In this document: piece after piece, positions 30,299 to 31,144 of the stretch
Position numbering within the stretch: position 1 is the first letter of the stretch
Layout: the number at the start of each line of letters is the position of its first letter
Assembly: GCA_905221605.1 (NCBI GenBank)
Contig: CAJNDS010000491.1
Coordinates: 682,001 to 746,000, forward strand
Length of the DNA: 64,000 nt
Reading direction: 5' to 3'
Origin: Symbiodinium natans
Lineage: Eukaryota; Sar; Dinophyceae; Suessiales; Symbiodiniaceae
Translations under genes and position numbers: made by a program
The notes under the pieces: generated by a model
Seen by the model: the letters and a program-made list of their open reading frames with translations, nothing else
Databases searched by the model: none
Told to the model about the DNA's origin: nothing

Positions 30299-30886
30299 AT
30301 GGCTTCGTCACAGTCGCACGATGCGGATGTGATCGCTGGCTTCATCAATCTGGGTGACGTGTCAGGCTTGAAGAGATTCGCAGGCCGCGACTTTGACTGG
30401 AACGCATGCCTGACATTCGGCGGAGCTCGCATGCTGCCGCTTGCAGCTGCAATTAGCGCAAACATCGCCGACCCCTCCTATTCTGGCAACGCCATCCAAG
30501 TAATTCAATGGATGATAGAGGCCGGAGCAAGCCCAAGACACAGGGCACCACACACGGTAAAGGACTCGTGGTCAATGTGGAAAGAGGATGATACTGAAAA
30601 GACGAAAATGTCAGTAAACTTGGCCGGACACTCTGCAATTTCATACGCCTTCAAGTGGCTAGATGAGATGCGCAAGCGGAAGGGTGGAGCAGACTGGTCT
30701 TCATCCATCAAGTTTCTTGAAGTTGTGGTGCGTACCTTGGCAAGTGAGCCATCTACGACTCCAAAAGTTGGAGTGCATCACAGCGTCTGTGAGCTCTGGG
30801 AGTCCATCCGCGAGTTGACTTCCACGCACAACGTGATCCTTGAGACCTCCGACGGCGAAGTCTCAGCCCACGACCATGTCCTCATG
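30299..30886 (+). CDS. BTB/POZ-domain protein with ankyrin-like N-terminus, exon 1
   Basis: Start ATG at 30299, the first in-frame Met after a good acceptor. This exon encodes residues 1-196. Residues about 45-85 (LPLAAAISANIADP, VIQWMIEAGASP) look like an ankyrin helix pair. Residues 175-196 start the BTB fold (NVILETSDGEVSAHDHVLM). Exons 1-4 total 897 nt, giving 298 residues and a stop. Proteins with this BTB motif are abundant in dinoflagellates and may act as substrate adaptors for cullin-3 ligases; that role is inferred. Codon use is GC-balanced and unlike the flanking repeats. Confidence 0.85.
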
Positions 30887-31008
30887 GCGGCTTGGTAGCC
30901 CTCTGGTAACCCTTCACCCCCTTTTTTTTGTCTCAAGGTTCCCTTATCAAGTATACCAACCAAAAAAACGGTGGGGGTATGCCAAGATGGTTATAATGGG
31001 CTACCAAG
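30887..31008 (+). other. BTB gene intron 1 (GC-AG), formed by a transposon-like element
   Basis: Best junction is ATG|GCGGCT...CCAAG|GTGGCC, giving LMVASPVLKAML in frame. It is a GC-AG intron of 122 nt, with G after the acceptor. Without removal the frame ends at TAG (30896). No GT donor gives an in-frame join to the downstream BTB coding run. Confidence 0.75.
30892..31007. mobile_element. Introner-like hairpin element, TTGGTAGCCC family copy 1
   Basis: The 116-bp element starts TTGGTAGCCC and ends GGGCTACCAA (perfect 10-bp inverted ends). It is flanked by GGCGGC (30886-30891) and GGTGGC (31008-31013), a near-perfect 6-bp direct repeat. Removing element plus one repeat restores ATGGCGGCCTCGCCT (MAASP), the expected BTB motif. 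Confidence 0.8.
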
Positions 31009-31144
31009 GTGGCCTCGCCTGTTCTGAAGGCCATGTTGGGGTCCTCCATGCAAGAGGGCGCCAGCCGGCGAATCCCCATCCGAGACTCGCCGAGCGCCAG
31101 CGTGTCCCTGTTCCTGGACATTCTCTACGCTGGCTCGACGTACA
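31009..31144 (+). CDS. BTB/POZ gene exon 2
   Basis: Reads VASPVLKAMLGSSMQEGASR followed by RIPIRDSPSASVSLFLDILY and AGSTY. This is the BTB core: helix A2 (SPVLKAML), the M.EG segment, strand RIPIRD and helix FLDILYAG. It ends ACGTACA|GCCACT with one base over. Confidence 0.85.

Follow-up and report, generated by a model that had tools for sequence, protein, structure and literature searches.

A MITE-like insertion as the very probable origin of an intron in a BTB gene of Symbiodinium natans

The BTB gene and its first intron

Symbiodinium natans is a free-living relative of the coral algae. The stretch of DNA analyzed here, which we call the window, comprises 64,000 nucleotides (C491:682001-746000) of the 759-Mb S. 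natans assembly that our genome searches covered. It carries on its + strand, on which all features described below also lie, a BTB gene with the public name dbo. Exon 1 (30299..30886) runs from the ATG and is placed by the spliced translation and by the public protein P0001, which is identical here; exon 2 (31009..31144) is placed by the spliced translation, P0001 and a paralog search, exon 3 (31253..31308) by the spliced translation and the paralogs, and exon 4 (31514..31630), which runs to the stop, by the spliced translation. Intron 3 (31309..31513) is a GT-AG intron with no visible inverted repeat at either end, and an inverted pair around it, GGACCTGGCT/AGCCAGGTCC (31287-31517), was dismissed as chance, as one arm is exonic and the other lies across a splice site. 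The gene model, with its end at 31514-31630, stops about 55 residues before the paralogs, which could reflect either a further intron that was missed or decay.

The spliced BTB protein matches P0001 (‘dbo’, S. natans) with 100% identity over 81% of the query, and P0001 leaves out exactly 30887-31008, the segment that we define as intron 1. Its removal by GC-AG splicing yields MVASPVL, as carried by P0001, with the junction VLMVASPVLKAML exactly as in P0001, and its retention leads in translation to a stop at ...LMAAW*. An earlier reading of this DNA, made from the sequence alone (the sequence-only reading), had arrived at MAASPVL by deleting the element together with the right-hand 6-mer; that deletion does restore MAASPVL, but it is not what splicing produces. 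P0001 then reads through intron 2 and ends with YSHLLLQKVER inside it, whereas the BTB paralogs continue past this point with sequence like DPDYKTMLVALDLAHRWQ. Judged by this comparison, the public model apparently misses intron 2, truncating the BTB domain. The gene models of S. natans are described as guided by RNA-seq and Iso-Seq (PMC8045281), and the splicing of BTB intron 1 is predicted here from the public gene model and the continuity of the protein.

Intron 1 consists of an element of 118 bp (30891..31008) plus 4 bp, with no remainder. The element, which we assign to introner family 1 on the basis of its genome-wide ends, is bounded by 11-bp terminal inverted repeats recognized by the pairing of their arms, CTTGGTAGCCC on the left (30891..30901) and GGGCTACCAAG on the right (30998..31008), the last AG of which is the 3′ splice site. 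It is preceded by GCGG (30887..30890), one of the two copies of a 4-bp target duplication; the GC of this left copy is the 5′ splice site, and its position is given by the genome copies, the paralogs and the start of the intron in P0001. The element is followed by the right copy, GTGG (31009..31012), which opens exon 2 and has its counterpart in the single GTGG of paralog L011. The intron reads GCGG-CTTGG...CCAAG, then GTGG of exon 2, and the two target copies match at 3/4 letters.

These limits differ slightly from those first proposed. The 10-bp arms that had been noticed, TTGGTAGCCC (30892-30901) and GGGCTACCAA (30998-31007), are confirmed without a mismatch, but C at 30891 and G at 31008 also pair, which extends the arms to 11 bp and the element from 116 to 118 bp. 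In the same way, GGCGGC and GGTGGC do adjoin the 10-bp arms, but the genome copies show a duplication of 4 bp rather than 6. The proposal that the duplicated target itself supplies both splice sites holds for the donor GC, which comes from the left target copy, but not for the acceptor AG, which comes from the element's own end. The inverted pair alone is not significant in this window, where 10-bp inverted pairs are frequent, with arms pairing at 342 of the 638,500 position pairs sampled (a count that includes repeats), and where matches to a single arm do not exceed chance (5 versus 9.2 expected). For that reason, we place weight on the fit to the exon junctions, on the genome places with the same ends (965 versus 0 in the control) and on the uninterrupted paralogs.

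Copies of the element across the genome

The genome-wide search for the 10-bp ends that the sequence-only reading had suggested, with the pattern TTGGTAGCCC-N80..110-GGGCTACCAA, found those 965 places, and the control with the reversed pattern found none. We fetched 50 listed places of the 965 with ∼1 kb on each side, in contig order (C1-C91) rather than as a random sample. In these copies, which the pattern selects by the inner 10 bp, the outer C and the outer G are each present in 47/50. Their 4-bp flanks match at 154/200 letters (77%) versus 53.8 (27%; sd 6.7, largest 80) when flanks are re-paired, and among lengths 2 to 10 the 4-bp duplication alone stands out, so that a 6-bp target duplication was rejected. 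The match is complete in 24 of the 50 copies, 3/4 in 14, 2/4 in 7, 1/4 in 2 and 0/4 in 3. The left target copy begins with GT in 3 elements, with GC in 2 and with GA in 2, and these 7/50 indicate no preference for donor-like targets. Intron 1 shares 55-78% identity with the 50 other copies and is an old copy.

The enrichment of genome copies in introns that had been expected was not seen in this sample, in which only 2/50 family-1 loci (L067 and L072) show a clearly interrupted coding sequence, a count in which copies inside long introns are not recognizable. Coding-like DNA, identified by a codon-usage score trained on the BTB paralogs, lies within ∼1 kb of 7/50 copies. The low share weakens the picture of a specialized introner and favors that of a general MITE, hits of which in coding DNA give rise to introns; it leaves the origin of BTB intron 1 unaffected. 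MITEs in general are short elements without visible coding capacity that have inverted ends, a target duplication and hundreds of copies. The S. natans elements share these general features and differ in that their insertions in coding sequence appear to be spliced out.

At L067 (C58), two family-1 copies lie within an RCC1-like repeat gene, with the targets GTAG/GTAA and GTGC/GTGC; both insertions are GT-AG and in phase, and the spliced protein aligns to P0077 without gaps at both junctions. The second L067 element (about 1320-1440 in canonical orientation) is stop-free in frame, and its retention would add residues. At L072 (C79), the duplication is GATG/GATG and the borders are GA-AG; protein P0197 spans the junction, and P0196, identical to the downstream part, begins after it. 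As expected of introners, similar copies are found at many places (965 for family 1 and 135 for family 2, described below, with controls of 0), and copies coincide with introns in different genes, namely the BTB gene of the window, L067 with two copies, and L072. Two features of cut-and-paste DNA transposons and MITEs, terminal inverted repeats and a target duplication of fixed length, are found as well.

Uninterrupted paralogs at the intron 1 site

To place the insertion within the BTB family, 116 aa of the BTB domain were searched against the genome, giving 42 matches, of which the best 30 loci were compared. Loci were scorable if they carried the motif SP[VA][LF]xAML and homologous sequence before it; 20 loci, corresponding to 15 distinct places, were scorable, 4 represented the window and its copy on contig C2512, and 6 were dropped (5 without the motif and 1, L033, without the homologous upstream part). 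Among these 30 loci of the 42 matches, the intron 1 site is uninterrupted at 15/15 scorable places. Paralog L011 (C2046) reads ccttATG-GTGG-CCTCACC, with a single target, and paralogs L005 and L025 carry GCGG at this site.

These paralogs bear directly on whether intron 1 could be an ancestral intron, one that has inverted repeats only incidentally or whose edges a MITE later invaded. The age of the copy would fit such a history, and the remaining paralogs might be retrocopies from which the intron was lost; dinoflagellate retrogenes are the subject of a published paper (PMC12014239). We regard it as extremely improbable, as none of the 15 scorable places has an intron there, including paralogs split elsewhere, and as the intron contains nothing beyond the element and 4 bp. 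The C277 and C1722 paralogs do have interruptions, though at other residues, so they are more than retrocopies devoid of introns, and wholesale intron loss does not account for the uninterrupted site.

An element-free allele of the BTB gene was not found in the assembly, where the sole near-identical copy also has the element. This copy lies in the first 6,500 bases of contig C2512, which equal window positions 27384-33875 on the opposite strand with 0 mismatches and 8 gap positions, and it may be assembly redundancy or a very recent duplication.

A second element in intron 2

Intron 2 (31145-31252, GC-AG) likewise consists of an element and a 4-bp flank. The element (31149..31252, 104 bp) has 12-bp inverted ends, CTTACTTCTCCA/TGGAGAAGTAAG, and is preceded by GCCA (31145..31148), whose GC is the 5′ splice site and whose duplication has eroded to 2/4 letters. 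Within the window, a leave-one-out profile did not recover intron 2, and its interior has a modest similarity to the other window elements that is significant for 3/6. The kinship of intron 2 thus could not be established within the window, and it was the genome-wide family that then explained it: the exact 11-bp ends of this family, family 2, occur at 135 places, with 0 for the control.

From 50 listed copies (135 places in all), 20 were fetched with 50-base flanks. Their 4-bp duplications match at 70/80 letters (87.5%) versus 25.1 (31%; sd 4.5) when re-paired, with 4/4 in 14 copies, 3/4 in 4 and 1/4 in 2. The median pairwise identity among the fetched copies is 91%, as opposed to 66-81% to intron 2, which makes intron 2 an old member of a family that also has younger ones. 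One family-2 copy (L094, GAGA/GAGA) seems to lie within an RCC1-like frame, as read from its flanks. Intron 2 of the BTB gene would accordingly go back to a further insertion, by a member of a related family, in the same manner as intron 1.

It could be argued that intron 1 is not an intron at all, but an insertion that breaks a dying gene and that the public model splices out by prediction only, and the early end of the BTB model, about 55 residues before the paralogs, would be in accordance with this. We consider this unlikely, since both elements sit on GC...AG/G boundaries with the reading frame kept and with protein similarity on both sides, and since two other genes, L067 and L072, show the same pattern.

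Proposed mechanism and comparison with known systems

Our preferred reading, which we hold with high confidence, is that the insertion of a non-autonomous, MITE-like DNA transposon with a 4-bp target duplication made BTB intron 1. The DNA-transposon-like introner that the sequence-only reading had proposed is in this respect supported by the omission of the segment from P0001, the 965 copies, the 4-bp duplications and the uninterrupted paralogs. The element (118 bp, with 11-bp inverted ends) would have entered an uninterrupted BTB exon at ...CTCATG-GYGG-CCTCG..., with a presumed transposase carrying out the insertion and the 4-bp target becoming duplicated. After the duplication, a G-Y dinucleotide (here GC, the donor) would stand four bases ahead of the element, and the AG would come from the element's right end, such that the spliceosome would remove the left target copy together with the element. 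The right target copy would open the next exon, and the mRNA would keep one target copy and the reading frame. Because the right target copy starts the exon, the acceptor AG would have the duplication's G as its next base. Published introns of S. natans are reported to have the donors GT (23.6%), GC (58%) and GA (18.4%) and the acceptor AGG in 97.1% (PMC10666404), statistics of the kind that many introns arising by 4-bp duplication would be expected to show.

A mechanism with a 4-bp duplication and a co-opted 5′ splice site has been published for S. microadriaticum (Gozashti et al. 2022, PMC9860276). As described there, introner family 1 of S. microadriaticum shares with our elements the 4-bp duplication, the terminal inverted repeats, the element-borne 3′ splice site and the 5′ site derived from the duplication, though it belongs to another species and the likeness is one of description rather than of element sequence (PMC9860276). 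The dinoflagellate introners of Roy et al. 2023 (via PMC11453091) are also transposon-made introns with several families per genome, with 15 introner families given for Polarella glacialis in the same account. The introner elements of Amoebophrya (Farhat et al. 2021, PMC7789003) have in common with ours inverted repeats (theirs of 8-20 nt), direct repeats at the boundaries and a hairpin fold, and are described as having no family-specific inverted-repeat motif, which we count as a further likeness. They differ in that introns there are described as mostly non-canonical, with direct repeats of 3-5 nt (PMC7789003), whereas here the borders are GC/GT/GA-AG and the duplication is 4 bp.

BTB intron 1 is, in this light, a clear new case of an already known intron-making route. 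It is an almost complete example of how an intron is born, with the element, the duplicated target, paralogs that carry a single target and a donor taken from the duplication, and the two families together account for 1,100 exact-end places in the genome. Since elements also lie outside recognizable coding DNA, and since targets show no donor-like bias, insertion can be separated from selection for splicing.

Related elements in the window, their fold and their orientation

Besides the two BTB introns, five elements were recognized in the window. A family-1 copy outside recognizable coding sequence (33580..33691) has the flanks CTGA/CTGG, and another (47516..47624) has a decayed left arm and no target duplication. 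Related elements with other inverted ends lie at 38448..38560 (GTAG/GTAG), at 52362..52472 (97% identical to 38448-38560, without a 4-bp duplication) and at 2525..2630 (AAAA/AAAA), the last recovered by a leave-one-out profile at only E 0.21. Across the seven window copies, the 4-bp flanks match at 18/28 letters versus 9.9 expected (P 0.0024), with 2/7 matching at 1/4 letters. When the five non-BTB copies are spliced, open frames of 28-77 codons result, compared to a null median of 55. Searches with exact interior patterns of the elements found nothing in viral_contigs and genome_contigs, and viral_contigs also yielded no confirmed BTB relative. A covariance-model scan gave 117 matches up to E 5, and beyond the seven seeds we accepted only one, a probable decayed copy at 53343..53450 (E about 5e-5, a rough value), the rest being weak, palindromic or on the opposite strand. 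Another inverted-repeat element of 109 bp (13080-13188, CTTAAATAGGGTCTATT...AATAGACCCTATTTTAG), with similar end letters, was missed by the family profile.

The seven window elements can be aligned from end to end. The core TTTTTGGTTCTGGGTTCC has three exact occurrences within the window, and the elements that carry it have ends of two kinds; the ends differ between groups and pair within each element. The outer stem forms in 6/7 single-sequence folds (z -3.1 to -4.7), the exception being 47516 (z +0.5), and the inner stem is seen in only about four of seven. RNAalifold by itself predicts the outer stem and omits the inner one. For these seven sequences, the covariation score of the outer and inner stems is 0.450 versus 0.209 for shuffled alignments (0/500), a score to be read with caution as two of the seven are 97% identical and relatedness inflates such values, and the signal is weaker in pairs changed on both sides (8 versus 5.6, 26/500) and in pair types (49/500). 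In a set of 15 sequences, whose family-1 and family-2 copies were picked by exact ends such that pairing is built in, the outer stem alone scores 0.539 versus 0.202, with 7 versus 4.5 pairs (6/500) and pair types at 52/500.

The window copies also share one orientation, with 7/7 on the + strand, the same as the BTB gene. Among 50 listed family-1 and 50 listed family-2 copies, intron 2 included, neighbors on the same contig agree in orientation in 43/47 pairs, though the pairs are not all independent since some listed places look like mutual duplicates. Agreement is 34/38 pairs at distances of at least 30 kb and 20/24 at 100 kb, and in each of the four discordant pairs the copies are separated by more than 440 kb. 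On contigs C2, C80, C91, C126, C726 and C757, the listed introner copies all point in one direction per contig. For the seven family-1 copies near coding-like DNA, the codon-usage score favors the element's strand in 6 and is tied in 1. Genes of S. microadriaticum are reported to lie in alternating unidirectional blocks (PMC8110479), such that the orientation pattern may follow transcription.

A hairpin whose outer stem shows compensating changes, together with a single orientation along contigs, is also what could be seen if the element moved as RNA by reverse splicing instead of as a DNA transposon. Reverse splicing, however, predicts no target duplications, and matches of 3-4/4 are found in 38/50 family-1 and 18/20 family-2 copies; furthermore, donor-like letters are not favored at target starts (7/50 GT, GC or GA). 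We therefore judge reverse splicing to be very unlikely, and retain insertion as DNA.

More tentatively, and at less than even odds in our own estimate, the two families and their relatives could form a superfamily of introner-MITEs with a common interior (core near GGTTCCCTTATAAAGTA) and ends that are family-specific yet complementary, in which the hairpin rather than the end sequence would be selected. Copies would hold one orientation over hundreds of kb even outside coding DNA, in the manner of unidirectional gene blocks, with insertion or survival tied to transcription, and a G-starting 4-bp duplication alone would yield the relaxed GT/GC/GA donors and the AG/G acceptor typical of dinoflagellate introns. 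A shared interior with differing but still-pairing ends, and the coherent orientation of neighbors, are possibly new: in the parts of the introner literature that we surveyed, which excluded Roy et al. 2023, neither end-swapping nor orientation coherence is reported in Symbiodinium. Should both patterns hold, they would be relevant to the way introners move and to the GT/GC/GA donors and AG/G acceptors of dinoflagellates.

The window yielded nothing in Rfam (gathering threshold), tRNA or phage-DNA searches, and ten of its open reading frames matched no Pfam family at E 0.1. It is rich in repeats of other kinds. Telomere-like interstitial arrays of CCCTAAA/TTTAGGG are numerous (e.g. 28796-29047, 34196-34694, 46121-46488 and 52734-53070), and one such array fills the interruption of BTB paralog L019. 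Palindromic repeats of ATTTGGCCAAAT units lie between AATTCAATTAATT repeats (14841-15600, 13213-16351), and a tandem duplication with ∼0.9-kb units occupies 19282-21352, with one set of inverted repeats recurring at 19282, 20158 and 21063.
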